A stretch of 21,699 nt of DNA from a virus, in the IMG/VR virus record IMGVR_UViG_3300042691_010057, positions 1 through 21,699 of that record, one strand, 5' to 3'. The first letter of the stretch is position 1, and every line of letters begins with the position of its first letter. Of the stretch, positions 1 to 19,468 are shown piece after piece. Below the pieces are notes generated by a model. That model was not told where the DNA came from. It was given only the letters and a program-made list of their open reading frames with translations, and did no database searches. The translations under genes were made by a program, and so were the position numbers.

Positions 1-1666
1 GTACGATGAATAAACGACGAACGTTGATACGATCGAATGCACTTGGTTTAGCAAGAAGTGTTTTATCACCAAAGAGAACTGTACCTTGACCAGGGAAGTT
101 AACAACTGGGTTAACGCCTGCTTTATAAAGATTGTCTCTTTCAGTTTTACCTGGGTTAATAGCAAGTCTAACAACATTTTTAACTTGTCCACGGTTTAAA
201 CCGCCAGGAGACCACCATGGGTCATTTGTGTAGTCTGTACGAGCACAAAGACCTGCAATGTCACCATTTAGAGGCACATATCTATATTTGTCATTATAGC
301 GGTCATATTGATACTTATAACCAGTATCCATAACAGCATATGATGTGCTTGGTAATGCATTTCTATATGCAACAACAGCATTTACAGCATCTGAACCAGC
401 ACCAATAATAACATCACCTGAAGTTGTATTTTCTGGAGAAACAAATACAACGCAATCTTTACGAACTTCAGCAACGTTATTGATAACATATGTAGCAACA
501 ACTGAAGAAGCTTTACCAAGCGGAATTAATGAGATGTCATATACTTCTGCATTAACAAATAATTGCCATGCCGTTTGTAGTTCGCCATCTGTTGGTGTAA
601 GATCATCAACACCACCAGATAAAGATGATGTTAAAGCTGCAGTAAGATCTTTAAATCCTTTACCATCAGCTGTTAAACCCCAATTTACACCAGATGAACC
701 TGTGCCGTTAACTGTAGTAAGAAGCGCTGTAGGATGGTCCATCCACCAGATATATCTAGATTGACTATTTACAACATCTTTATAGTAGTTATTAGTGCCA
801 TCTGTTTTCTTAGCATCAGAAGCTTTAGAAACATAAGCAAATTTTTCTAAAACTGTACCTGGAACACCTGTCCATAGACCGTCTTCATCGACAACAACGA
901 TATGAACTTCATCATTTGAACCACCAACACCACTAGCATATGCTGAAGTAGTTGGTTCTGAATCAAATTGATCTTTATAAGTCCATGTATCAAAAGTTGT
1001 TTGATCAGCCATAGAAACTTTTAATGAATTACCTAATGAGCCTGGATATTTAGCAGCCCATTCGCCAACTACACCTTCACCAGCATTATATGATAAAGTA
1101 TAGGCTTCTTGGTTATTAATTTTAATACCGCCAGTTGTAATAATAGCTGTTGCAGTAGCATCTGTACCTGGACCCGTCGCAATAGTAACTGAAGGAGCAG
1201 ATGTATAACCAGAACCTGGATTAGTAATTGTAATACCAGTAACTGATCCACCTGTAAGAACTGCAGTTGCTGTTGCTTGAACACCACCAGCAATGTTTGG
1301 AGCTCCTATTGTAACTTCAGGAGCAGTAACATATGAATCACCATCTTCAGTGATTGTAAAACCTGTAACTGTACCAGTTTGCGTTACCACTGCATTTCTA
1401 TGTGTTTGTGTATCAACGCGATTTACTAATAAGTTGTTTGTGTATGCAAGGAAATTTGCAGCTGTAAAGAATGATTGTGCATTTGAATCTACTGGTTTAC
1501 CAAAACGTTCAACCAAATTAGTTTCAGATGTAATTGTAACAGGATCTAAAACGGGACCCCATGTGAACACTCCAGCAAATGCGCCTGCAGAACTAGATAC
1601 TGCTGGAACAATGGCTGAAAAGTCTTTCTCGACTACCGCAACTCCTGGAGATAATTGGAACGGCAT
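1..1666 (-). CDS. 18: Tail sheath protein gp18 (C-terminus cut by window edge)
   Basis: Contractile tail sheath subunit of a T4-like myophage; it polymerises around the tail tube and contracts at infection. The 555 visible codons open with MPFQLSPGVAVVEKDFS, the usual N-terminal signature of T4-type sheaths, followed by an AGAFAG..WGP motif and FFTAANFL. Near the cut end come PWWSPGGLNRG, NPVVNFPGQGTVLFGDKTL and FDRINVRRLFIV, all hallmark sheath segments. T4 gp18 is 659 aa, so roughly the last 100 residues are missing. Residues about 102-185 look like an extra module with two copies of a GxxYxxAPxVTI pattern that T4 lacks. The ATG at 1666 is preceded by a strong AAGGAGA ribosome site and a perfect late promoter. 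It lies directly downstream of the large terminase gene, as in T4. Confidence 0.97.
   Translation of the reverse strand, partial: MPFQLSPGVAVVEKDFSAIVPAVSSSAGAFAGVFTWGPVLDPVTITSETNLVERFGKPVDSNAQSFFTAANFLAYTNNLLVNRVDTQTHRNAVVTQTGTVTGFTITEDGDSYVTAPEVTIGAPNIAGGVQATATAVLTGGSVTGITITNPGSGYTSAPSVTIATGPGTDATATAIITTGGIKINNQEAYTLSYNAGEGVVGEWAAKYPGSLGNSLKVSMADQTTFDTWTYKDQFDSEPTTSAYASGVGGSNDEVHIVVVDEDGLWTGVPGTVLEKFAYVSKASDAKKTDGTNNYYKDVVNSQSRYIWWMDHPTALLTTVNGTGSSGVNWGLTADGKGFKDLTAALTSSLSGGVDDLTPTDGELQTAWQLFVNAEVYDISLIPLGKASSVVATYVINNVAEVRKDCVVFVSPENTTSGDVIIGAGSDAVNAVVAYRNALPSTSYAVMDTGYKYQYDRYNDKYRYVPLNGDIAGLCARTDYTNDPWWSPGGLNRGQVKNVVRLAINPGKTERDNLYKAGVNPVVNFPGQGTVLFGDKTLLAKPSAFDRINVRRLFIV
1110..1360 (-). 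repeat. GSGYT-type repeat module inserted in gp18
   Basis: Two copies in tandem: FTITEDGDSYVTAPEVTIGA near 1300-1360 and ITITNPGSGYTSAPSVTI near 1180-1245, separated by GGVQATATAVLTGGSVTG. The module lies in the N-terminal third of the sheath, between the first conserved block and NNQEAYTLSY. It matches the gp14 insertion in protein pattern and in a 17-base identical string. Confidence 0.65.
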
Positions 1667-1738: not shown

Positions 1739-3325
1739 CTAAAAATTCAATAGAACCTCTTCGTTAGGTGTCTCTCTTCCATCATTGTAAAATCCGAATG
1801 GGGTTAACTCATCCTCAATAGACTTAATTTGTTTCTCATACATAATCTGTCTAAGATTGACGTCATTAAGATCCTTAAAGTAAGGATTTGTAGTTAACCA
1901 ACTAAATAATACTAAAGTCATAACCAAATCATCATGATAACCTTCATCGGCAGCATAAGAACCTTTCTGCTCAATAAAGGTTGAGATCTCAGCTATAGTG
2001 TCGATATCCTGTACTAACAGTTTACCTTCTTCCACTAGAGCCTTAAAGTTCATACATCCAACTCGCTTAACCTTTTTATCTGTATTAACTCCAAGTTGAG
2101 CTTTACCTCCACCGAAGCCACCAGAAACTACTTGTCCATCATTTGATCTATTGACGAATAGGATATTCTCATATTCCATCTCAGAATAAAGGATAGACGA
2201 AACTTGTTCAGAGGAATTAACCTCCATTAAAACGTATGCTTCATTATATTCTTTTCCGATCTTGTATATCACTGATGGATATAACATCGGACTAATTTTA
2301 TTATCTCTATATTTTGCTACTTGTTTATATGGTACTTCAGTAATATCTATGATAGAGAATGATGAATAGTCTCCACCAACACCCTTTGCAGTATCCGCAA
2401 CTAGTACATAGTTATGACCTTTTATAGGTTCTTCAAATACATCTAATCCATCTTTACTATGTATAACTCTAGCCGCGCTCATTTTAGCAATGACATCAGC
2501 TCTGACTAATGTTAAGCTAGAACCTAAGAATGTACAAAGAACTTCTTGGTTAAATTTAATTTCTCCAAGTTGTCTTCTTTGTTCTTCTGCCCATTTCTCA
2601 TCTCTACCAGGAATCTTCCAGTATGGAATAAACAGCGGAATAAAGTCATTACGTTTATTCTCAGCATCATTCCAAAATCTCCAAAAGTGATTATAACCTA
2701 ATGGAGTAGATGATAATAGAATCTTTGTTGTTTCACCAGCAGAAATTGTAGGATATACCGAGGTAAAGAAGTCTTCAGCAACATTATTAGGTATAATTGC
2801 AGTTTCATCAACGTACAGCATGTTAACAGATTTACCGCGGATACCAGATGATGTAGTAGCTGCGGTAAATACTTTACTATTGTTCTCTAGTTCAATATCA
2901 CCTTTATTCCATGTAGTTACTCCTTGTTGTAACCACAACGGAAGGTTTTCATACATTAATTGGTACCTGTATAACACCTCACGGGCGGCGGTGGCTTTGT
3001 TTGCCAAGATTGCGACAGTTTTACTATCTTGAAATAGGGTATACCATAGAATGTATGCAGCTGAAGTCGTAGTCTTACCTTGCTGACGACCTTCCATAAG
3101 GATAACTTTTCGATTTTCATGGATAATTTTTACCTTCTCAACTTGACAATCATATAACTTAAATGGAACTAGACCATGGTCTAGAGAGATGATCTTGCAG
3201 TAGTTATTTATGAAGTATATCGGATCCTCTTTACATTTGACCCATTCCGTTACCTGTTCTTCAGTAAACGGTATTTTTACTCCTGCTGCTTTTAACTGTG
3301 TATTTGCATTATATACTTGTGCCAT
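1739..3325 (-). CDS. 17: Terminase large subunit gp17 (packaging ATPase and nuclease)
   Basis: Motor protein that cuts the DNA concatemer and pumps it into the prohead through the portal. The 528 residues contain a Walker A-like GRQQGKTT (79-86), a Walker B MLYVDET (169-175, with Asp173 and Glu174) and a coupling motif LLSSTP (203-208). The RNase H-like nuclease half has Asp311 (LVADTAKGVGGDY), Glu368 (LMEVNSS) and Asp465/Asp466 (YHDDLVM), matching T4 Asp401, Glu458 and Asp542. It is about 80 residues shorter than T4 gp17 (610 aa), mostly before Walker A. The ATG at 3325 follows the gp15 stop by 3 bases. No clear Shine-Dalgarno is seen, so coupling to gp15 translation is likely. No gene 16 precedes it. 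Confidence 0.97.
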   Translation of the reverse strand: MAQVYNANTQLKAAGVKIPFTEEQVTEWVKCKEDPIYFINNYCKIISLDHGLVPFKLYDCQVEKVKIIHENRKVILMEGRQQGKTTTSAAYILWYTLFQDSKTVAILANKATAAREVLYRYQLMYENLPLWLQQGVTTWNKGDIELENNSKVFTAATTSSGIRGKSVNMLYVDETAIIPNNVAEDFFTSVYPTISAGETTKILLSSTPLGYNHFWRFWNDAENKRNDFIPLFIPYWKIPGRDEKWAEEQRRQLGEIKFNQEVLCTFLGSSLTLVRADVIAKMSAARVIHSKDGLDVFEEPIKGHNYVLVADTAKGVGGDYSSFSIIDITEVPYKQVAKYRDNKISPMLYPSVIYKIGKEYNEAYVLMEVNSSEQVSSILYSEMEYENILFVNRSNDGQVVSGGFGGGKAQLGVNTDKKVKRVGCMNFKALVEEGKLLVQDIDTIAEISTFIEQKGSYAADEGYHDDLVMTLVLFSWLTTNPYFKDLNDVNLRQIMYEKQIKSIEDELTPFGFYNDGRETPNEEVLLNF

Positions 3326-3328
3326 GTT

Positions 3329-4060
3329 TTAAAACTGCGCTTCCCAATTTTCTGTAGGATCAGATGATGGAGTAGCTCCAGCTTCTGCTGTATATTTTTG
3401 ACCAGGAATAGAGGTGTTAGCCATTGATTTAAGAATAACGCCTTGACTTGTAACTGGACCGTAGATATTTGTCTTTAATGTAAAGTTAAGTGTGTGCACC
3501 ACAAATCGTCTTTCTTGGAAAGAACCATCATAGTTATCTTCAATCGTTACACTATTAAGAATAACTGGAATGTCTTGAATGATGTCCATTTCAGGAACCG
3601 CGTGAACTGACAGATTATATTCAGGAGCAAATGTTGGTAGAATCTGTTCTAGTATCTGCATAGCATCTTCTTGTGTCTTTGTAAGAACATACAAATTAAT
3701 GTCTATGTTATATGGAGCTGGAGCAAATAAAGCTTTTCTAGTTGGACTAGAAGATGTAGTAGCCTCATTGCAAACTAATTGTTGCATCTTGTTTGTTTTA
3801 CGCGATGCATCATAGAAGTAACCAGTAATTTCAAATGATAATCGTGGTAGTGATATGTAAGTATGATTATTAAGATTTGGATCTGAATCAATACGAACTA
3901 ACCATTTTTCCTTTGGGGCATATGCAAGAGGAACTTGAACTGTTTGTGCAATAGCTCCATCAGTTCCTTGTCTTTCAATCTTGATGTCGGAGAATAAACG
4001 ACCAAATGCAACAATCGTTTTTCTAATAGCACCGTGGTAGAATGGTACTCCGTTAAGCAT
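3329..4060 (-). CDS. 15: Tail sheath stabiliser / tail completion protein gp15
   Basis: Homologue of T4 gp15, the hexameric terminator that caps the head-proximal end of the tail and connects it to the neck. The 243 residues (T4: 272) follow the family layout: an N-terminal FYHGAIRKTIVAFGRLFSDI, then VPLAYAPKEKWL, LPRLSFEITGYFYDASRKTN, and YVLTKTQEDAMQILEQILPTFAP, which corresponds to the T4 segment FTRYEDDMFQIVEQILPYF. The C-terminal tail (QGVILKS onward) is low in recognisable features, as in relatives. The start codon overlaps the gp14 stop as TAATG, which implies translational coupling. It lies between neck gene 14 and terminase gene 17; in T4, gene 16 would sit between 15 and 17. Confidence 0.93.
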   Translation of the reverse strand: MLNGVPFYHGAIRKTIVAFGRLFSDIKIERQGTDGAIAQTVQVPLAYAPKEKWLVRIDSDPNLNNHTYISLPRLSFEITGYFYDASRKTNKMQQLVCNEATTSSSPTRKALFAPAPYNIDINLYVLTKTQEDAMQILEQILPTFAPEYNLSVHAVPEMDIIQDIPVILNSVTIEDNYDGSFQERRFVVHTLNFTLKTNIYGPVTSQGVILKSMANTSIPGQKYTAEAGATPSSDPTENWEAQF

Positions 4061-5109
4061 TAGCTAATCTCTCCAAAAGGATTGTCTTCGTTGAATACAA
4101 TACCAACGGCTTCTTCTTTAAACTTGTTATTATCACCGTATGAATCTTGATTATCAAGATTTTCAATATAAGCTACTGCAGTAGCAGAATTACCACCTCC
4201 ACCTGATATAATAATAGGAGGTGTTGATGTATAACCAGAACCAGGATTTGTTACAACTATTTTAACTATTTCTCCTAATGCAACGCCTGTTCCAACAGTT
4301 GCAGTTGCTTGAGCTCTTGTACCAACATACTTAAGTAAAGCAGTACCATTTGCAAGAATTCCAGATGAGTGTGTTGGGCCCGTTGCTCCAGTTGTACCAG
4401 CTTGTGTAACAATGTATTGTTTAGTTCCAAATGATAGTTCATCTCTTACGTCAACAGCAGTCGTTGCTGTCCATGTAACACCCACTTCTACAGTGGGTGC
4501 TGATGTGTAATTAACTCCTTTATTGGTAACCATGATCTCTTTAACAGTACCATTCTTAACCACAGTAGTATCAAATGACTTGAGAGTTTCAAATGTATCA
4601 ATATCTTTAAGACCAGTTGTAATATGTTCTGATGCATATTGAAAGAGTTCAACTTGTAGTTTATACACAAAGAGTTTACCAATTTGATAGAAAGGATCTT
4701 GATGTGTAACAAACTTAATTTCAAATAAACCACCAGTAAGCGGAAAATAAAGTAGATCCCCTTCTGCTGGTCTATTAGGTAAAAGAGATGCTGCATGGCG
4801 ACCAATGAGTTGATCCCATCGACGGCGTGCTACAGTTAATGTAGCACTTTGTTCCATCATAAGTCCAAACTTTTGGATAAATGCGCCCTGACCTTCAAAT
4901 CCATCAGTAGTCTCAAGGTACATTTCAATACCATATGCAGATTTAAATTGAGATAGGCGATCTTCGCCTAAGATTTCATCTTTACCTATAAGTGTGCGTG
5001 GAATGTAATAGAAGTTCTGTCCATAATGATGAATGGATTCAACTATAAGGTCTTCATGAAATAGCTGTTCTGACCTTGCGCCATGCGAATGATATACTGA
5101 ACGTGGCAT
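4060..5109 (-). CDS. 14: Neck protein gp14 with inserted repeat module
   Basis: Homologue of T4 gp14, part of the neck ring joining head to tail. Residues about 20-170 carry the family pattern: LIVESIHHYGQNFYYIPR, ILGEDRLSQFKSAY, FEGQGAFIQKFGL, EGDLLYFPLTGGLFEI and DPFYQIGKLFVYKL. The C-terminus ends in EDNPFGEIS, matching the T4 SNPFDND ending. The protein is 349 aa against 256 in T4. The excess is a Gly/Thr-rich insertion at about residues 188-310, holding VTNKGVNYTSAPTVEV and VTNPGSGYTSTPPIII, the same pattern as in the sheath protein. It starts 3 bases after the gp13 stop with a nearby AGGAT ribosome site, and its stop overlaps the gp15 start. Confidence 0.94.
   Translation of the reverse strand: MPRSVYHSHGARSEQLFHEDLIVESIHHYGQNFYYIPRTLIGKDEILGEDRLSQFKSAYGIEMYLETTDGFEGQGAFIQKFGLMMEQSATLTVARRRWDQLIGRHAASLLPNRPAEGDLLYFPLTGGLFEIKFVTHQDPFYQIGKLFVYKLQVELFQYASEHITTGLKDIDTFETLKSFDTTVVKNGTVKEIMVTNKGVNYTSAPTVEVGVTWTATTAVDVRDELSFGTKQYIVTQAGTTGATGPTHSSGILANGTALLKYVGTRAQATATVGTGVALGEIVKIVVTNPGSGYTSTPPIIISGGGGNSATAVAYIENLDNQDSYGDNNKFKEEAVGIVFNEDNPFGEIS
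4190..4545 (-). repeat. GSGYT-type repeat module inserted in gp14
   Basis: Two copies of a pattern IxVTNxGxxYTSxP (IMVTNKGVNYTSAPTVEV at the 4535 end and IVVTNPGSGYTSTPPIII at the 4262 end) flank a Thr/Gly-rich spacer. The same element occurs twice in the sheath gene. The 17-base DNA string at 4226-4242 is identical to 1200-1216 in gene 18. Confidence 0.65.
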
Positions 5110-5112
5110 TTA

Positions 5113-6075
5113 TTATCCTAAGAAAAACTCAAGTGGAGCTGATTTATTCATCATCTCGTCTTCTAGCTCTTTGATCTCTATCTTTGCCTCTTCATACATG
5201 CCTTGCCAGTCGATTGTTACACCACCTGGAAGTACTAAACCTTGGAATTTTTTACCGTTAATTGCCCATTGTCGTTTAAATAATGCAGTAACATATTTAC
5301 GCAACCATGGTTCGTTCCATACTTTAATCCACTCTGTTGGATCTAAAGCTCTGTAGCATTCCATGATAATGAAGTCTCCTAGAGCAAAATCAGAAGCCCA
5401 GTTAACATCAAGATATAAGTTACCTTGCATACGATTAAATCTATATAAAGGATAACCATTTAGTTCTAAGTTAAGTAATGAGATATGACTCATGACTGTC
5501 TTATAGTAAATGATCGATGTTGAAGTCAAATCATATAAGTCATTAAGTCTTAATTGGTATTGTAAGTCAAATAGATTCTTTGAGCTTGAAGCAGCATTAA
5601 ATGGAATAACTCTAGTTACACCATAAACTGTATCGGGTAATGGTATATAACGTTTGTCATATGTACCTAATACTACAAAATTAGTTGCAGTAAGCTGTGC
5701 TGTTGTTGTACCGTTACCGATAGTTTCAGATGCTATAAATGTACCAGTAATATTTTTAACTATAATCTCTGAAGCACCAGATGTTCTATTATTCTCAGCA
5801 CATACTTCAGCAGTAGCTCCTGAAGTTACTCCAGTAATTTTATCACCAAGCTTGAAGTTTGATGAAGTTGCTGTTGTTATGTTGAGGTTTGATGCAGTTA
5901 TCTTTTGTTTAAGATAAAGTTTTTCCGCGCCATCAAAGTGATATTGATTCCAATAATCAAGAGCTTCATCAATACGCTCTTCAAGTTGTGAGTCATCAAC
6001 ATTGACTTCGACCACCGGTTCACCAAGTGCTCTTAAACAATATTCTGTTAGTTCTGCCCTACTTGTAACTGCCAT
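5113..6075 (-). CDS. 13: Neck protein gp13 with inserted repeat module
   Basis: Homologue of T4 gp13 (309 aa), a neck protein that seals the portal after packaging and docks the tail. Diagnostic segments are LRALGEPVVEVNVDDSQLEE and ALDYWNQYHFDG near the N-terminus, RKYVTALFKRQWAINGKKF and LVLPGGVTIDW near the C-terminus, and the terminal PLEFFLG. T4 has LRRLGAPIINVE, YGEYHFDG, MMLPGGVTIDG and FGILVG at the same places. Residues about 60-135 form an extra Thr/Ala/Gly-rich stretch (GVTSGATAEV, NITGTFIASETI) not found at this place in T4. The ATG at 6075 is preceded by TAAGGAC, which overlaps the stop of the preceding gene. Confidence 0.94.
   Translation of the reverse strand: MAVTSRAELTEYCLRALGEPVVEVNVDDSQLEERIDEALDYWNQYHFDGAEKLYLKQKITASNLNITTATSSNFKLGDKITGVTSGATAEVCAENNRTSGASEIIVKNITGTFIASETIGNGTTTAQLTATNFVVLGTYDKRYIPLPDTVYGVTRVIPFNAASSSKNLFDLQYQLRLNDLYDLTSTSIIYYKTVMSHISLLNLELNGYPLYRFNRMQGNLYLDVNWASDFALGDFIIMECYRALDPTEWIKVWNEPWLRKYVTALFKRQWAINGKKFQGLVLPGGVTIDWQGMYEEAKIEIKELEDEMMNKSAPLEFFLG
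5671..5898 (-). repeat. TSGA/ITGTF-type module inserted in gp13
   Basis: Residues about 60-135 of gp13 read KITGVTSGATAEV, IIVKNITGTFIASETIGNG and TTAQLTATN. They interrupt the conserved gp13 sequence between YLKQK and TYDKRYIPLPDTVYGVTRVI. T4 gp13 passes directly through this point with a short segment, so I infer an insertion, related to the module at 8686-8874. Confidence 0.55.
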
Positions 6076-6086
6076 ATTTAAAGTCC

Positions 6087-6650
6087 TTAGACGGTCAGAG
6101 CAATAATATTGTCTGTGTTAGTCTTAATTTCAGAAGTATCTTCTTTAGTATCGTAAATCTTACCGCCAACAGTTTCTGTATTAGCATATGTGGATGGATT
6201 AGTACCAAGGATTTCGTCTCTAATTTCAGCAGCAGAAGGAACAGTAACCCCTGTTGTATTATAAGCGTATGCTAAGTTTGCAACAGTAGAAATAACGCCG
6301 CCACCTGCTTCAACAATGTATGTATCAAGACTTAAGTTATCTTGATAAAGAATACCAGTAATAGAAACAGTGTTTGTAACATCTACTCGCCAGTTATTTG
6401 TAAGAAAGTAAATATCACCTGCATATAATCCACTGCCTACAGAGTCACCACCAATTGAACGAAGTGGAGGTAGGTAACTCATGTTCTGTCTTCTTTGCAG
6501 CCAGCGTTTTGCCGCTGAATACAGGTCAATCTTTACATTGATAGTATTGTATTGAGGCGCAATATAGATTAATTTGTTATCTCCGTCAAATATTACTTTC
6601 AACGGGTCAACAAGGTCATCCCAAAAACTGACTGCAGTAGAAGTTATCAA
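6087..6650 (-). CDS. Virion structural protein, 187 aa, probable TTG start
   Basis: Probable structural protein of unknown exact role, immediately upstream of neck gene 13. An open frame extends to an ATG at 6857, but its first 60-odd residues (Leu/His-rich, no sensible pattern) lie inside the preceding gene in another frame. From the TTG at 6650 the product becomes protein-like: ITSTAVSFWDDLVDPLKVIF, KWR-type KRWLQRRQN, GSGLYAGDIYFLTNNWRV and VSITGILYQDN. This resembles small phage structural proteins that have a beta-rich core ending in an Ile-Thr-Gly-x-Leu-Tyr strand. The C-terminus (AEIRDEILG, KEDTSEIKTNTDNI) has a helical, possibly coiled-coil character. The TTG is one base past the preceding stop (TAA at 6652-6654), with a GGAAAGAG stretch just upstream. 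Start confidence is moderate. Confidence 0.7.
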   Translation of the reverse strand: MITSTAVSFWDDLVDPLKVIFDGDNKLIYIAPQYNTINVKIDLYSAAKRWLQRRQNMSYLPPLRSIGGDSVGSGLYAGDIYFLTNNWRVDVTNTVSITGILYQDNLSLDTYIVEAGGGVISTVANLAYAYNTTGVTVPSAAEIRDEILGTNPSTYANTETVGGKIYDTKEDTSEIKTNTDNIIALTV

Positions 6651-6651
6651 G

Positions 6652-8961
6652 TTATCTAATCTCTTTCCAGTATTTAGTGTACAATAGAGATGCTGATGTA
6701 AATGTGCCAGTAGTTGGGAAAGGTTTAGCAGCAAATGCAAATACACCTTTCTCATCTTCAGCTGGGTTAGGATTACCACCAAGACCGAATGATTTTTCGA
6801 TACGGTCACCAAGAGCTGTTCGACCTTCAGAATTTGCCGGAGCAACAAAGGATTCAATTGGCCAGAATTTATAGTAACCGCCGTAACCAGTTAGTGATCC
6901 AACTGTTTGTGATTTACTTACACGATATGTACCAACTCCACCTTTAGTGTATACATTATATGTACCAGAACCAGTACCAGTAAATGCTTTAGATAATGTT
7001 AATACATTATTCTTAATGCCTTCAATAGTTGTACCAGCTGGCAAGTTAGTACCAGCAATTAATTGACCTGGAGCAACACCAGCAAGAGATGATAATACAA
7101 GTTTATTAGAACCAGCAACGCCAGATCCGCCAGTTTGTGTACCATATGTTGGCGATGCGGCAGCAGAACCTGTAGCTGTCAATTGCTCAAGAACTTGAGT
7201 TAAAGCTAATACTGAACCAGTAGTTGCTGCAAATGATGCAGATCCATTGATATATAATGGTCCATTTGCATATGTTGGAGATGGTGTTACATACATTTCA
7301 GCTAGTAATGAGCCGCTTAAAGATGTAACAGTTAAGGTAGTGCCAGAAATAGAACCAGCAATGTCTGTAGGTCCACCAGCCCAATACTGATACTGTGCCA
7401 TATCTGTAGTATTAGTGTCTACATATAACATTGTAGCTGGTTGAATTGTTTCTGACCAGTGATGATTATTAACCCATTTTTGGCTAGGTAATACAAAGAT
7501 ACCAATATGAATATTAGCATCACCTTGAGATGCCCAGTCAAATGTTTCATGGATACCAATGACTGAGTTAGGCATATTTGCAGAAGCTTTACCGCTACCG
7601 GTGCCAGCCCCTGTTGCTGTGAATTGTACACCAACAACGTTTGCAGATGCACCAATCAATGTGAAGTCAGTAGTTCCAATAGAAGTAATAGTATAGCTAT
7701 ATCCTGTAATAAATGTTCCAGCATCTTGAACTGGACCACGAACAGTATTCTTAGCTTTAAATTGTAAGAATGGTTTATATACATCAGGATCAGTCAATAC
7801 AATAGGTGCATCAGGAATGATGTGTGTTAAAACACCAGTGTACTGAACGTCGGCAGATTCTGTAAATACAACACCATCACCAACTCGCATAGACTGAGTA
7901 GCTGCAGGCGAACTAGAAACTGAACCTGTGTTACGTTGAGCCCATGTTAATGGTAAGGTTAAATTACGTATTGATGTACCATCTAAATTATTAATATTAC
8001 GGAATTCGTGACATGTAATACGACGACCGTCTGGTGTTTCTACACCAAGACGAATACGACCAACTGTACCTTGAACGTCCATCCAATATAGATTAGATTT
8101 AGAAACATCCAATAAGAAGTCAGAAGCTGTAGCAGAATTTAATGCATTAACGTTCCAATTTGCTTGGGAAACTGTAGTATCCACAACTGTTCCAGATGAA
8201 TCTGTACGGTAGAAAACTTTAAGTGTAGTTCCGTCTAAGCGGAAACCAAAACCATTAAAGTCATCAAAGTAACCCCATTCACGAACAACGTTAGCTTTAC
8301 CTGTGTCGCCTATTTCCACCGATGTATAAGCAAGTTGTGAAACACCTGGTTTGTATGGATGATATTGATTAGTAACTCGTTTTGCCCAGTCTGTAGAACC
8401 AGTGCCTGTAGTATAAACAATGGATGATTGTGCAACATCATACTTGACTGATGAACTTCCACCTTCAGTTGTTGTATAATATTTTCCAGCTAACTCTTGA
8501 GTAAAGTGATAATATTCACCAACAGCAAGTAATTGAGAAAGTTGTTGTCTACCAAAGGCGTCAAACTGTGGAGTACCTTCAGGGAAGGATGTAAGAGCCG
8601 CACCACGTTTGTCTACTGTCAACGTATATTCAGGCGTGTCAGCATCAACAATCTGCATTGCTGCAGAATTGATAGAATTATTAACTACAGAAGCTGTAGC
8701 ATAGTTCTGTGTATTTGCTTGGTTTCGTAGAGTTTCACCGGCAGAGAATGAACCACTGATATCTTTTAAATACCATACAGTATCTTCAGCTGAGTATACG
8801 CCAGATAAAGTACCAAATGCGCCTGATGTATTACCATAGACAACAGTACCTACAGCAGGGGTAAGAGTAATACTGGTAACTTTAATATCAGTAGTAACGC
8901 GATGTCTTACTTTCTTTCCGACACCGTCTGGAGGTAACTGCACAAAATTCGTTGTTGACAT
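6652..8961 (-). CDS. Large modular virion structural protein, 769 aa
   Basis: Large beta-rich structural protein, probably part of the tail, baseplate or fibre; the specific role is not recognised. The body (about residues 105-400) has a coherent non-repetitive sequence including FGRQQLSQLLAVGEYYHFTQ, EWGYFDDFNGFGFRLDG and GRIRLGVETPDGRRITCHEF, typical of adhesion-type proteins of marine T4-like phages. Around it sit four apparent modules: residues 30-92 (GNTSGAFG, DISGSFSAGETL); residues 414-461 (YTITSIGTTDFTLIGASAN); and, in about residues 532-692, a split GTTLTVTSL...GTYRVSKSQ module interrupted by a second one (VAPGQLIAGTNLPAGTTI). Start ATG 8961 has an AAAGGAATAAG leader and a late promoter motif. 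The C-terminus ends YTKYWKEIR, resuming non-module sequence. Confidence 0.85.
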   Translation of the reverse strand: MSTTNFVQLPPDGVGKKVRHRVTTDIKVTSITLTPAVGTVVYGNTSGAFGTLSGVYSAEDTVWYLKDISGSFSAGETLRNQANTQNYATASVVNNSINSAAMQIVDADTPEYTLTVDKRGAALTSFPEGTPQFDAFGRQQLSQLLAVGEYYHFTQELAGKYYTTTEGGSSSVKYDVAQSSIVYTTGTGSTDWAKRVTNQYHPYKPGVSQLAYTSVEIGDTGKANVVREWGYFDDFNGFGFRLDGTTLKVFYRTDSSGTVVDTTVSQANWNVNALNSATASDFLLDVSKSNLYWMDVQGTVGRIRLGVETPDGRRITCHEFRNINNLDGTSIRNLTLPLTWAQRNTGSVSSSPAATQSMRVGDGVVFTESADVQYTGVLTHIIPDAPIVLTDPDVYKPFLQFKAKNTVRGPVQDAGTFITGYSYTITSIGTTDFTLIGASANVVGVQFTATGAGTGSGKASANMPNSVIGIHETFDWASQGDANIHIGIFVLPSQKWVNNHHWSETIQPATMLYVDTNTTDMAQYQYWAGGPTDIAGSISGTTLTVTSLSGSLLAEMYVTPSPTYANGPLYINGSASFAATTGSVLALTQVLEQLTATGSAAASPTYGTQTGGSGVAGSNKLVLSSLAGVAPGQLIAGTNLPAGTTIEGIKNNVLTLSKAFTGTGSGTYNVYTKGGVGTYRVSKSQTVGSLTGYGGYYKFWPIESFVAPANSEGRTALGDRIEKSFGLGGNPNPAEDEKGVFAFAAKPFPTTGTFTSASLLYTKYWKEIR
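6886..7365 (-). repeat. Nested repeat modules in the 769-aa protein
   Basis: Translated on the minus strand, 7365-7285 gives GSISGTTLTVTSLSGSLL and 6955-6886 gives GGVGTYRVSKSQTVGSLTG. Together these match the start and end of a single continuous module in the neighbouring 749-aa protein ([12 protein letters not shown] ... [16 protein letters not shown]). Between the halves, about 7160-6955 encodes a second module, LVLSSLAGVAPGQLIAGTNL then PAGTTIEGI and VLTLSKAF, related to the GxGIPxxTRIASI modules of the 749- and 812-aa proteins. Confidence 0.6.
7580..7721 (-). repeat. Inserted TTDFTLIGASAN module in the 769-aa protein
   Basis: About 47 residues reading GYSYTITSIGTTDFTLIGAS, then FTATGAGTGSGKA, with an abrupt change of composition from the flanking VRGPVQDAG and NMPNSVIGIHETFDW sequence. 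I know the pattern as a recurring short element in marine phage structural proteins. Its function is unknown; I infer a small beta module. Confidence 0.55.
8686..8874 (-). repeat. TSGA/ISGTF-type module in the 769-aa protein
   Basis: Residues about 30-92 encode VVYGNTSGAFGTLSGVYSAE, DISGSFSAGETL and a Thr/Ala-rich tail. The same layout (TSGA, then a hydrophobic strand, then I-S/T-G-T/S-F and a Gly/Ser-Glu-Thr turn) recurs inside gp13 at 5671-5898. Confidence 0.5.
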
Positions 8962-14172: not shown

Positions 14173-14180
14173 TATTTATT
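14173..14180 (-). promoter_or_regulatory. Late promoter motif upstream of the 134-aa gene
   Basis: AATAAATA on the minus strand; its first two bases belong to the stop codon of the 1503-aa gene (TAA at 14179-14181). The leader would be about 10 bases and just covers the AAAGGAA ribosome site before the ATG at 14157. Confidence 0.65.
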
Positions 14181-17100
14181 AAACCACAGCGGCTTTAGCA
14201 CTTATTGTATTTAATATGTCTAGTTCAACGAATACAGCATTTGTTTCTCCATCTGCAAATACTGCTCTTGAGTATCCTGAAACTAACACTTTATCACCGC
14301 TGGAGAAAATTGATGATGCAAAGTCTGATGCTCCTGAACCTACTTGATATTTTTTCCATGTTCCAGTATTTAAGTCAAGAATACCTACGCAAATATCCAA
14401 GAATCCATAACTTAAAGCGTTATCTGCAAATGCACCAGCTGAGGAACAACATATAGCTATACGACCATCACTAAGTAATACTGATGGTTTACCGTTCTGT
14501 TCAAAAATTTCAGATGTAGTTGAACCTGTCTGATATGCAGTGCCCCATGTATCAGTAACATAATTAAACAATATTACTCCAATATCTTCAGTTCCTATAT
14601 TAGTTGTAGAACCTACAGCACCATATGATGAGTATGTAATAGCCAAGGTGTTATTTCCAACATCATGAATGTTTACACCTTTATCATCCAAGCCTGAACC
14701 TGTAGAATAATAATCTGAAATCTCAGTCACTGGATCAAATATTCCAAGGAATATATCATAACCACCTTGTGGAGTTCCACCTAAGTTACCTGTTGTTCTA
14801 CCGGTATAGGCAATCTTACCATTTGCTAACTCAGTCAATGCATAGGTTTCTTCATCGTTTGATGTTCCATTTTGATAGAATTCCATCTCTTCTGTTACAG
14901 GATCAAATTCAATCAACACATAGTCATATGCACCTGATGCCCCAGTATTAACTTTAGATAAGTCTCCTGATGTTTGGCCAATACAGTATATTGCACCAGA
15001 ACTTGCTTTAATCACATCATAACCAAATATATTACCATCATCCGCTGAACCGTCGCCGACAGTTCCAGCTTGCCAGAATCTAAATATATCTTTTGTATAA
15101 CTAATGTATTTTCCTCCTGATGAAACAACTGTCTCTTCTTGTTCACGTCTATGTTCTTCTGTGTTCAAGTATTTTTGAATTTCATCCAAGTCAACATAAC
15201 CAACAAAGAACATAAACACACCGTTAGGACCAAATGATCCATCATATATGTTTGTTAAGAACCCATAATCATTTAATGTATAACCATTTGATTTATCTGG
15301 ATTTTCTACAATATTAATAATACCAGACATGCCTGAATGGAAACGGCAATTATAGTATAAAGTATTAGGAGCTGTTTCTGGTACAGTGAAAGTAATTGTA
15401 CCATTATCTGTACCATTATTAGTTACTCCGTCATTATACTGATTACCTGTACCTGACCCTTGTACAGTTTTAATATAAAATGGATGTCCAACTGCACTAA
15501 TGTTAAATGTGTATGTACCACCACGAGCTAAAGTTAGTGTAACGTCTGTTCCATCTGTAAATCCACCACCATTAAATACATAATTATTAGTACCCTGATG
15601 GGTAACTGTATATATGTCTCCAATAAATGGAGCCGGCGTTCCTTCTGTTTCTACTAAAGTTCCTGTAGTATTTTCAGGAGCAGTAAGAGCTCCTAGTGAT
15701 GCTGTATTTGCAGATTCTGAGATAGCAGTTGCTTGATAGATATATGGTACACCAGGATTACCTTCGAGATGGTATAGCCCGGTACCAAATCCACCAGACC
15801 AGAACCTAAACATGATAGCATCTCTACCAAAGCTATGTGATTCGCTCCATCCTACACATAGAATATTATCTTCATTTGTGCCATCTAATGTTACAGCAAG
15901 CAATTGCTCATCCATATCATGGCCAAAGGCATTCTGCCATTGGATAGTTCCACTTGAATTGTATTTGACCATTAAACCATCATTCATACCCATAGTGGCA
16001 ATACCAGAAGATGTGGTATACCCAACTGAATAGACATTGTCTAAGCTATCAACTGTAACGCCTTTTAATTCTGCGTTAGCCATAGATCTTGCCCATGATT
16101 TAGTTATAGTATATACACCAGCTGATAATGTAGTAGCAACTTTAAGTAGCAATGAACTAGTTCCAACTCTACCAGATAGAACATAGTCAGAAGCACCGAT
16201 ATTTCTAATGTCATTAAATGTAGAATTACTTTCGTATGTTCTTACCCACTTAATCATTCCACCAAGACTAAATGTTTTACCAATACCAAATTTACCTGTT
16301 GGAGTGGCGGCACCGTTATCTCCTGCAAAAATGAATTGACCTTCATTAATATTATTTGCATCACCTCTAATTTTATTAACTATTAAACCACCAAACGTAA
16401 ATTGCTCTAAAGCATTTCCATTATCGTCTATTACTAGGAATGTGGTATCATCCGCTACTGGGTTAACAACAGCTACAACAAATGATTCAAGTCCATTATT
16501 CTGTGTTCTGCATATAGATGATGCATATTCATCGGATGCTGTACCATATATCTTGGTCCATTGGAGCAAACCAGTTGAGTTAAACTTAGCAACAAAAGCT
16601 TCTCTTGATCCCTCACCTATCCAATTAGTTGATCCACATATATAAGCATTATCATTTTCATCAACATCTATTCCAAATGCTTGTTCGATTGCAGTTGCAT
16701 CTCCATCATCAATAGAAGTCTGCCATAATAAATTATAGTTTGGATCAAACTTCATTAAGATAATATAACCAGTGCTATGATTACCTACAGCATATATGTT
16801 ATTATTTGAATCTGTTGCTATATCAACAAACTGCATTTCATTTGCACCATCTGCAAAATTTCTACAGAAACCATGGACACGCATATCTTTGCGATCAACC
16901 AATTCTGATTTAGTATAACCTGTAATCCATACCTTTGGATCTACTGGGTCTTCCCAACAACCAGTAATATAGTCATCACCAGATCCGCCCCAAGCAAAGT
17001 AATGTGGGTCTTCAGTAATATTAGAATATAGACCTACTAGTAAATCTCCAGTTGTTCCAGTACCAAAGTTATCTTTGTTTCCAGACACCCGCCCAACCAT

Positions 17101-18690
17101 TAATTTACGACCATCAGTTAACTGTATTCCTTGATAGTAAAATTCATTTCCACCAAGAATCGATTCTCGTTTATTAATAAACTTAGGACTAGCTATATTA
17201 TATTCAAATATATTTTTACCTTCAGCAATACCTGCAGGCTCTGCTGTTGTATATTTGGTTAATGTAGAAGTAATCTGATCATATTCTAGATAACCATTGG
17301 CTAATGCATTTCTATTAATATATGCATTATTTGTATAATCATAGTCAAGATGTTTATAACCAGGGAATGAACCAGTTAACTCAAATGTATATAAACCAGG
17401 ACCGGCGTATGTTGTGCCAGTTCCTAATGCAGTTCCACTTAATAGTAAGTAGAATTTAGTATCAGCAGAATTATATTCAAATCCATGTACACGAACATAC
17501 TTAGTATTACTATTAGTTACTACTTGACCCTCATCTGTCCATGTTGATGTTGTTGGATCAAATGATTTTAATCTTACACCACCATCAGTCACATCCGTAT
17601 ATGTAGCATATAGTTTAGTTCCAAATACTTTTAAATGACAGTCTGGTCTAATTGCTTGTTGTGATGCAATAACATAGCGCTGTAAAGAACCACCAGCAAT
17701 AGTATCTAATGAGTTAAATGACCAAATTTCTAGATCAAATCCTGTCGTTGCGTTATTTAATATTACTGGAATGTAAATTCTCTCATTGAATGCAGTACCG
17801 GCAGAAGCACGAACTGGATAATTGTGTTGTGATCCTGTAAGTGCAGTTGGAGTAATTGTTGCATCAGCTAAGTCATATGTGCCAAGATTAACTTCAAGTG
17901 AGAATGATAATGAAGCTTGTGTATATGTGCGAACAAATATATCCCATTGTGCGCCATTTGCAGCAATATAGAATGCATGGAAACGATTACCAATGCCTTT
18001 CAATATACCACATGGCATATAGTTCTTAGTACTTACAGTCGGTAGTGTAATATCATTATGTGAGTTATGGGCTCCACCAACAGAGGGTGTATGGATACGA
18101 GCAAGTACTGACTGATAGTCGACTCCCATCACAGTAATGCGCGTATTAATTAAGTAGCCATATGCTTTATCTTCTGGATTAATCCATCCACGGGCAGACT
18201 GAACTTGTCTACCATTTTCATATTGTGGGTAGAATGATGGGATATGCTTGTGATATTGGTAGTAGAACCAATCGCCGCCACCTGTTCCAGAATAAGCTCT
18301 ATCCCAGTAGTATGCATCATCATCTGTAGCTGGTGATAATGAACCAAGGTGACCAAAGAAAAATGCATCAGTTTCTTGTGTGGAGGTAATATCATTAACA
18401 CCAGCACCAATCCATTCAATACATGAACCATGATATTTTACATTAACACCTTCCCATGGTTGTGTAATCAAAGGCATCGTGCCTTCAATAATCATGTTAG
18501 CTGCAGCGCCATCTAATGGAAGAGTATTGCTCCATTTATATGGTTTAATAGACGCACCAAGAGTATCGTTATTTGAATTTACGGGAGTATAATAGAACCA
18601 ATACCCAGTTGGACTAATACCTGAAGTTTCAGGTAGGTTCAAAAACTGGGTAGTTAACGATACCGCTCTTGTAGAATTAACAATTGCCAT
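14179..18690 (-). CDS. Giant virion protein with propeller-type repeats and a cupredoxin-like domain, 1503 aa
   Basis: Largest gene of the window; probably a surface adhesin or fibre. The N-terminal 600 residues are Tyr/Trp-rich and not assignable, with Kelch-like strands (LKVFGTKLYATYTDV, VRLKSFDPTTSTWTDEG). Residues about 603-963 hold repeated units of the kind seen in bacterial SBBP-type beta propellers: IATDSNNNIYAVGNHSTGYI, VDENDNAYICGSTN, EAFVAKFNSTGLLQW, VTVDSLDNVYSVGYTTSSG. Residues about 1030-1132 form a cupredoxin-like domain (His1069, Cys1115, His1118, Met1121). Residues about 1197-1503 return to propeller-like repeats (YDYVLIEFDPVTEEMEFYQN, YDIFLGIFDPVTEISDYYST, GVILFNYVTDTW, CVGILDLNTGTWKKY). 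No signal peptide or membrane segment is seen. The start at 18690 has AGAAGG upstream, overlapping the end of the 52-aa gene. Confidence 0.88.
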   Translation of the reverse strand: MAIVNSTRAVSLTTQFLNLPETSGISPTGYWFYYTPVNSNNDTLGASIKPYKWSNTLPLDGAAANMIIEGTMPLITQPWEGVNVKYHGSCIEWIGAGVNDITSTQETDAFFFGHLGSLSPATDDDAYYWDRAYSGTGGGDWFYYQYHKHIPSFYPQYENGRQVQSARGWINPEDKAYGYLINTRITVMGVDYQSVLARIHTPSVGGAHNSHNDITLPTVSTKNYMPCGILKGIGNRFHAFYIAANGAQWDIFVRTYTQASLSFSLEVNLGTYDLADATITPTALTGSQHNYPVRASAGTAFNERIYIPVILNNATTGFDLEIWSFNSLDTIAGGSLQRYVIASQQAIRPDCHLKVFGTKLYATYTDVTDGGVRLKSFDPTTSTWTDEGQVVTNSNTKYVRVHGFEYNSADTKFYLLLSGTALGTGTTYAGPGLYTFELTGSFPGYKHLDYDYTNNAYINRNALANGYLEYDQITSTLTKYTTAEPAGIAEGKNIFEYNIASPKFINKRESILGGNEFYYQGIQLTDGRKLMVGRVSGNKDNFGTGTTGDLLVGLYSNITEDPHYFAWGGSGDDYITGCWEDPVDPKVWITGYTKSELVDRKDMRVHGFCRNFADGANEMQFVDIATDSNNNIYAVGNHSTGYIILMKFDPNYNLLWQTSIDDGDATAIEQAFGIDVDENDNAYICGSTNWIGEGSREAFVAKFNSTGLLQWTKIYGTASDEYASSICRTQNNGLESFVVAVVNPVADDTTFLVIDDNGNALEQFTFGGLIVNKIRGDANNINEGQFIFAGDNGAATPTGKFGIGKTFSLGGMIKWVRTYESNSTFNDIRNIGASDYVLSGRVGTSSLLLKVATTLSAGVYTITKSWARSMANAELKGVTVDSLDNVYSVGYTTSSGIATMGMNDGLMVKYNSSGTIQWQNAFGHDMDEQLLAVTLDGTNEDNILCVGWSESHSFGRDAIMFRFWSGGFGTGLYHLEGNPGVPYIYQATAISESANTASLGALTAPENTTGTLVETEGTPAPFIGDIYTVTHQGTNNYVFNGGGFTDGTDVTLTLARGGTYTFNISAVGHPFYIKTVQGSGTGNQYNDGVTNNGTDNGTITFTVPETAPNTLYYNCRFHSGMSGIINIVENPDKSNGYTLNDYGFLTNIYDGSFGPNGVFMFFVGYVDLDEIQKYLNTEEHRREQEETVVSSGGKYISYTKDIFRFWQAGTVGDGSADDGNIFGYDVIKASSGAIYCIGQTSGDLSKVNTGASGAYDYVLIEFDPVTEEMEFYQNGTSNDEETYALTELANGKIAYTGRTTGNLGGTPQGGYDIFLGIFDPVTEISDYYSTGSGLDDKGVNIHDVGNNTLAITYSSYGAVGSTTNIGTEDIGVILFNYVTDTWGTAYQTGSTTSEIFEQNGKPSVLLSDGRIAICCSSAGAFADNALSYGFLDICVGILDLNTGTWKKYQVGSGASDFASSIFSSGDKVLVSGYSRAVFADGETNAVFVELDILNTISAKAAVV
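15295..15603 (-). other. Cupredoxin-like domain within the 1503-aa protein
   Basis: About 100 residues: NYVFNGGGFTDGTDVTLTLA, RGGTYTFNISAVGHPFYIKT, then TITFTVPETAPNTLYYNC and RFHSGMSGIINIVE. This is the strand pattern of small blue-copper folds. Candidate type-1 copper ligands are His1069 (GHPFY), Cys1115, His1118 and Met1121, with Cys-x2-His-x2-Met spacing as in amicyanin. Metal binding is inferred, not shown. Confidence 0.7.
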
Positions 18691-18693
18691 TTA

Positions 18694-18852
18694 TTACCTT
18701 CTTAAAGCCATTATGGCCATAATTATCCACATAAACCACATCTTACCAGTGATAACTTGTGAACCACATATTAAAATAGTTTCATGTATAAATTCATATA
18801 TTGCAAATGACGCAAATAAAGAAAATAAAATTAAAGAGTGTTTAGTTACCAT
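18694..18852 (-). CDS. Small membrane protein, 52 aa
   Basis: A short frame fills the 150-base gap between the methyltransferase and the 1503-aa gene. The ATG at 18850-18852 lies inside the last codons of the methyltransferase (ATGGTAACTAA, where that gene's TAA is read out of frame), and its own TAA is followed within three bases by the next ATG, so it is translationally sandwiched. The product has two hydrophobic segments, residues about 6-19 (SLILFSLFASFAIY) and 38-50 (MWFMWIIMAIMAL), ends in LRR, and has no cleavable signal features. Two short transmembrane helices and a basic C-terminus are compatible with a holin-like or other membrane peptide, but no family is recognised. The tight fit between neighbours is the main support for it being real. 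Confidence 0.65.
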   Translation of the reverse strand: MVTKHSLILFSLFASFAIYEFIHETILICGSQVITGKMWFMWIIMAIMALRR

Positions 18853-19468
18853 TAGTGTCTAGCCATGTGTGATTTGGGTTAATTTGTTTCCATTGATCAA
18901 TACTTTTAACTGTAAAAGGTGTATTAACATTTACATCTATAACATGTACTATGTTAGATTTAGGCATGTCTGGATTTAAGATAGATTCACAGTTATTTAA
19001 TATTTGTGTAAATGAATCATGAGAAGATAATACATCTTCAGTAATAACTACATCAAACCATAAAGAACCAGTTGCTCTACTTACTTTTGTAGTAAAGTCT
19101 GCTGCAGTTACATCGATATTATGGATTGGAAAGACTGCTTTTTCTTTATTTTTTATTGACTGAATATATTGAGAGTTATCGCAACCCCAACAATTCATAC
19201 CTAACTTTTTAAGTTCTTCCATAAGAATACCTAAACCACATCCTATTACAAATATATCTGTAGACTCTTGTAGGTTTAATTTTTCTACAATATTTTTTGC
19301 TCTAAGGGAAAATACACCTTCATCTTCAAAAAATTCTCTAGAATAAGTTATATCACGCTCAGAACATTGGCAATTTCTAGCCCTTGTTGCTCCACATGCG
19401 CGCTGCTTATAGTATTGTTTCCAATAAGTAGACTCGTATCCAGGTTTATCCCATGTATAAATTTGCAT
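18842..19468 (-). CDS. SAM-dependent methyltransferase, class I, 208 aa
   Basis: Probable methyltransferase with a Rossmann fold. Motif I is DIFVIGCGLGI (71-81), matching the family pattern of a hydrophobic strand then GxGxG that binds S-adenosylmethionine. An acidic end of strand 2 is at Asp97 (CWGCDNS), IDVTAADF (118-125) resembles the motif that holds the adenine, and FDVVITEDVLSS (138-149) is the motif IV region. The N-terminus has WDKPGYESTYWKQYY and a Cys cluster (Cys25, Cys33, Cys35), possibly structural or metal-binding. The substrate cannot be told from sequence; a location among tail or fibre genes hints at a glycan, a virion protein or a small molecule and not DNA. It starts 2 bases after the stop of the preceding gene without a clear ribosome site. 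Confidence 0.82.
   Translation of the reverse strand: MQIYTWDKPGYESTYWKQYYKQRACGATRARNCQCSERDITYSREFFEDEGVFSLRAKNIVEKLNLQESTDIFVIGCGLGILMEELKKLGMNCWGCDNSQYIQSIKNKEKAVFPIHNIDVTAADFTTKVSRATGSLWFDVVITEDVLSSHDSFTQILNNCESILNPDMPKSNIVHVIDVNVNTPFTVKSIDQWKQINPNHTWLDTNGN

Follow-up and report, generated by a model that had tools for sequence, protein, structure and literature searches.

The cupredoxins that best match the predicted fold of the domain described here are rusticyanin, AcoP and the cupredoxin domain of three-domain nitrite reductase (1rcy, 7z3b and 2dv6), whose copper site consists of one His together with a Cys/His/Met set, as does the ligand set found here. They differ from our domain in being redox carriers or enzyme domains rather than virion parts, in their low identity to it (~20%) and in their longer ligand loops (C-x6-H-x4-M in AcoP; PMC4059628). 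The C-x2-H-x2-M loop of our domain, with an N-terminal His in register, is found in amicyanin and pseudoazurin (PF00127). Amicyanin spaces His and Cys by 39 residues (His53 and Cys92; PMC12723479), against 46 here, and is a stand-alone electron carrier, whereas our domain is built into a 1503-aa ORF of phage structural type. Metal in a phage tail protein has a precedent in the HxH iron sites of T4 gp37-like tail fibres, for which a role in marine trace-metal cycling has been proposed (PMC11705849), but the metal, the ligands, the fold and the oligomeric site all differ from ours.

Among phage proteins, the domain constitutes the C-terminal ~105 aa, with all four ligands, of PHROG 677 gp9, the cyanophage baseplate wedge tail fiber protein connector. 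PHROG 677 has never been annotated as a cupredoxin in PHROGs, and the gp9 C-terminus is at present annotated by position and T4 analogy alone. The 1503-aa protein has only this region and a weak stretch before it in common with gp9: PHROG 677 matches residues 899-1129 at E 8.2e-27 through profile positions 253-410 of 412, and neither full-length homology to gp9 (~400 aa) nor a gp7-gp9-gp10-like gene order was found. Another Pfam family, PF25489 (At5g54830-like domain), has matches of E ≤ 1 to 16 of the 34 family members (best E 3.1e-4) and one of E 7.4e-6 to a bacterial member, below the PF25489 cut-off; it has no match to the domain studied here.

The 21,699-nucleotide stretch of viral DNA that we analysed (the window) represents part of a T4-like virus genome, and the 1503-aa ORF lies in its late structural block (Table 1). 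The nearest relatives of its terminase large subunit (1739..3325) are those of Methylophilales phage Melnitz, Synechococcus cyanophages and Pelagibacter phage Mosig (49-51% identity), and an ORF at 2..1666 (-) resembles a tail sheath in sequence and position. In transcription order the 1503-aa ORF is upstream of the neck genes, as baseplate and short-fibre genes of T4-like phages are kept. Judged by annotation and gene order, the proteins that bear the domain would be located in the virion. A closely related sibling contig (L001) has the same 1503-aa protein, its gene differing at 19/4512 bases (11 synonymous and 8 non-synonymous differences; pN/pS 0.21), and no phage record covering 80% of the protein was found.

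Table 1. Features of the 1503-aa ORF and its surroundings, with positions in the window; the last row lists contigs.
Feature	Position	Strand	Basis
1503-aa ORF, tail-fibre or baseplate-type	14179..18690	-	carries cupredoxin domain; T4-like structural gene block around; PHROG 677 match
SBBP-type beta-propeller repeats, N-terminal of domain	16200..17160 (approximate)	-	Pfam SBBP, NCBIfam NF047494
Cupredoxin domain (predicted), residues about 1025-1132	15295..15618	-	AF2, fold matches, family HMM
His1069, putative N-terminal copper ligand	15484..15486	-	aligned with pseudoazurin-like His; 95% conserved
Cys1115, putative thiolate ligand	15346..15348	-	concordant with His1118 across 128 domains
His1118, putative second His ligand	15337..15339	-	sequence, conservation
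Met1121, putative axial ligand	15328..15330	-	114/115 where Cys and His kept; exception Gln
C-terminal repeat region, residues 1141-1503	14182..15270	-	no Pfam match; AF2 pLDDT 36.3
Head-tail adaptor (neck protein)	5113..6075		PHROGs
Head closure (neck protein)	4060..5109	-	PHROGs
Freshwater-type contigs of the ligand-less clade	L041, L045-L049, L052, L054, L055		

Structure prediction supports a Greek-key beta-sandwich cupredoxin fold for residues 1020-1140. AlphaFold2 models this segment at pLDDT 92.7 from a 34-sequence alignment, and the best solved-structure matches of the model are all cupredoxins, with AcoP (E 2.2e-5), rusticyanin (E 4.6e-5), nitrite-reductase cupredoxin domains and laccases in the first ranks of a Foldseek search against the PDB, and VIA-align scores of Z 11.3 to the 2dv6 cupredoxin domain and Z 10.7 to a rusticyanin variant. 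The TM-scores of the fold matches are moderate (about 0.5-0.58), which is expected given ~20% identity. An earlier note on this DNA had proposed a cupredoxin-like domain in a virion protein, at coordinates close to the boundary that we find (about residues 1025-1130), and the model agrees with that proposal. The note had also suggested superposing the predicted structure on amicyanin; the predicted fold is indeed that of a cupredoxin, but rusticyanin, AcoP and nitrite-reductase domains rank ahead. The amicyanin likeness itself stands as far as the C-x2-H-x2-M loop is present, but the same loop occurs in several other bacterial PF00127 proteins, and amicyanin was ruled out as a specific relative, the ligand spacing being common to other cupredoxins. 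Two viral models in BFVD, A0A481YVH3 and A0A481Z6J5 (labelled 'beta-sandwich', from marseillevirus- and pithovirus-like giant viruses), also match our model, at E 3.8e-8.

Sequence searches find the domain less readily. Pfam and NCBIfam assign it no name in the window, and both it and the whole protein fall below the gathering score of Pfam PF00127 (Copper-bind), with no match. Seven of 34 family members do match Copper-bind (best E 3.7e-4), and one cellular member, in L222, passes its cut-off (31.8 vs 21.2 bits). A profile search of the PDB gave weak cupredoxin-type matches (laccase, E 0.01; nitrite reductase, 0.79; auracyanin, 4), and a single-sequence PDB search gave chance matches only. 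Our family HMM scores the domain at 161.5 bits (best domain) and finds it once in the window. The earlier note had placed the domain between two propeller-like regions, which holds for the N-terminal side, where Pfam SBBP matches three stretches of residues 481-1019 (E 3e-10) and the propeller region (15634..17250, -) is weakly like Leptospira LipL53 SBBP lipoproteins (NF047494, E 3.8e-24, well below cut-off). The C-terminal side, by contrast, has no Pfam match, and AlphaFold2 models it at pLDDT 36.3 from a single sequence without an alignment.

The four ligand residues are exactly those named in the earlier note, with 46 residues from His to Cys followed by C-x2-H-x2-M. A pattern of this kind (H-x38-52-C-x2-H-x2-M) appeared in 9 of 20,000 shuffles of the 1503-aa protein and is thus unlikely to arise by chance; its conservation in homologues marks it as a real feature. 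In a profile-profile alignment (hhalign) with pseudoazurin-like proteins, a set found as PF00127 matches in bacterial genomes, each of the four ligands falls on its counterpart (pairwise E 8e-5): His1069 on the His of their K-G-H-N motif, and the Cys, the His and the Met on their three C-terminal ligands. The last three also align between the domain and a small C-x2-H-x2-M set (E 4e-5, profile-profile), as does the C-terminal stretch of azurins by the same type of comparison. A His1069 lying apart from the other three would have spoken against a copper site; as far as alignment can tell, it instead corresponds to the N-terminal His of known cupredoxins.

How the ligands vary among relatives bears on whether they act together. 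Viral and bacterial contigs yielded 188 distinct domains, of which 129 were retained as non-redundant at 75% identity; the complete H-C-H-M set is present in 68/81 viral and 46/48 cellular representatives. Cys1115 and His1118 form the only perfectly concordant pair among 351 well-conserved column pairs (both kept in 115 domains, both absent in 13, split in none of 128), and His1069 is kept whenever they are. Met is kept in 114 of these 115 domains, the sole exception being Gln, which serves naturally as an axial ligand in stellacyanin. This exception is a cellular member (L086, about 5998-6300) whose loop reads CQFHSSQ, as in stellacyanin-type sites. Because the concordance count ignores relatedness, the fair number of joint losses is about five, the independent places at which they fall on a tree computed after masking the ligand columns: one freshwater phage clade and four single domains. 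An apparent sixth loss on the tree (L092) reflects a truncated alignment. The freshwater clade, whose proteins are ~1900 aa long, keeps the fold and has lost Cys, His and Met together, so not every such protein requires copper. All four ligands are kept by 35/35 distinct domains in an independent set of gp9-type contigs, by 8/8 of the named or single-cell phage records first inspected and by the gp9 proteins of S-H34 and S-SM1. Weaker, partial matches to the domain were also seen in the gp10-like protein that neighbours gp9.

The four residues therefore do not vary freely across homologues, a check that the earlier note had proposed, and the joint keeping or loss of Cys and His with the retention of His1069 and Met favours metal binding over a fold kept for structure alone. 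These patterns support the view that the ligands are selected as a unit. We consider it unlikely that the fold is a pure beta-sandwich spacer, with the residues kept for packing and the virion free of bound metal. Ligand-less versions exist and are evidently tolerated, and the non-ligand residues G1057, F1062 and I1073 are equally conserved, as a spacer would allow; packing, however, does not predict joint loss, Cys1115 and His1118 are the one perfectly concordant pair of 351, and phages and bacteria alike conserve this free, otherwise unpaired Cys. Copper is the metal that we infer, since an H/C/H/M set whose one exception is Met to Gln is the type-1 signature. Sequence cannot tell the identity of a metal, and cupredoxin sites can take Zn in vitro, but an axial Met in this set is characteristic of copper and the exceptional Gln is in keeping with the copper series, so that another metal (e.g., Zn or Fe), or a free thiol kept for covalent or redox chemistry, is a very unlikely occupant of the role.

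The domain is widespread in marine phages. A tblastn search found it in 324 phage records at E 0.01 (341 at E 1); almost all are Synechococcus or Prochlorococcus phages, plus a small number of marine single-cell viruses and Pelagibacter phages. It is also present in many metavirome contigs. Podovirus P-SCSP2 has it close to the N-terminus of a 437-aa protein. Among bacteria, we found copies in Flavobacteriia, PS1/OCS116 alphaproteobacteria, Myxococcota, Acidobacteria and further groups. Several of these are short stand-alone proteins with signal or lipoprotein-like N-termini, as extracytoplasmic copper proteins typically have; the genome context of two of the stand-alone members showed neither a copper nor a redox operon. 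Viral and cellular copies are interleaved on the tree, with nine changes by parsimony, which suggests repeated transfer between them. The gp123 protein of S-CREM2 has been detected in virions (PMC10665884), and its region contains no cupredoxin domain of this family.

We regard it as reasonably probable that the stretch from about residue 1025 to 1130 is a true cupredoxin domain whose type-1 copper site is intact, and that it serves as a modular part of a tail-fibre or baseplate protein in a marine T4-like phage. From its sequence, the module would be competent for type-1 copper, with copper its presumed occupant. Each domain would take up one copper ion, and the metal would lock the beta-sandwich and the ligand loop into a rigid knob that resists seawater and proteases; the same module caps gp9, which connects the cyanophage baseplate to the tail fibre. 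The module is probably metal-stabilised, a role that we propose in place of electron transfer because it is built into fibre and connector proteins and no redox partner is visible, and it would be exposed on the virion. Cytoplasmic assembly counts against this reading, since it makes copper loading non-trivial; the cytoplasm being copper-poor, loading would probably take place at or after lysis.

Copper might instead be bound for attachment or signalling, with a copper-loaded tip seen by a host copper receptor or exchanging electrons with a host surface protein. That tail-fibre and baseplate proteins retain the whole type-1 ligand set would suit such a function, and for marine phages the iron held by HxH motifs in the tail has been put forward as a ligand for the receptor, an iron Trojan-horse idea (PMC11705849). 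We nevertheless think this improbable: type-1 ligands are normally buried under a hydrophobic patch, so that a receptor would less naturally recognise the metal directly; the module occurs beyond fibre tips, standing in gp9 at the end of a connector protein; and no partner is apparent.

We found no description of a phage, cyanophage or virion cupredoxin or type 1 copper site in the open-access literature, searched mostly through titles and abstracts. If copper is bound, some of the ocean's most abundant viruses would have blue-copper-class metalloproteins in their tails, a large number of marine viruses may have copper-bearing tails, and copper would join iron in the discussion of metals in phage tails, with colour and EPR as a simple assay for cyanophage tails. 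In a broader speculation, to which we give a low but appreciable probability, the tail fibres and baseplates of marine T4-like phages, cyanophages included, would contain type-1 copper in stoichiometric amounts, taken up from lysate or seawater, and copper occupancy would gate tail-fibre stability or host attachment, so that the particles would constitute an oceanic biogenic pool of copper ligands. The gp9 C-terminus of cyanophages also gains a predicted fold and testable residues.

Other features of the structural block deserve brief mention. A GSGYTSAPxVxI-type repeat is present in both the sheath-like ORF and the head closure protein, and in the latter this stretch matches tail-fibre PHROGs, possibly as a shared decorating repeat. 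A methyltransferase-like ORF of 208 aa (18842..19468, -; PHROG 22502, E 0.007) lies within the block. ORFs of 769 aa and 256 aa overlap by ~205 bases in different frames (6652..6857, -), and the true start of the 256-aa ORF is probably further in.
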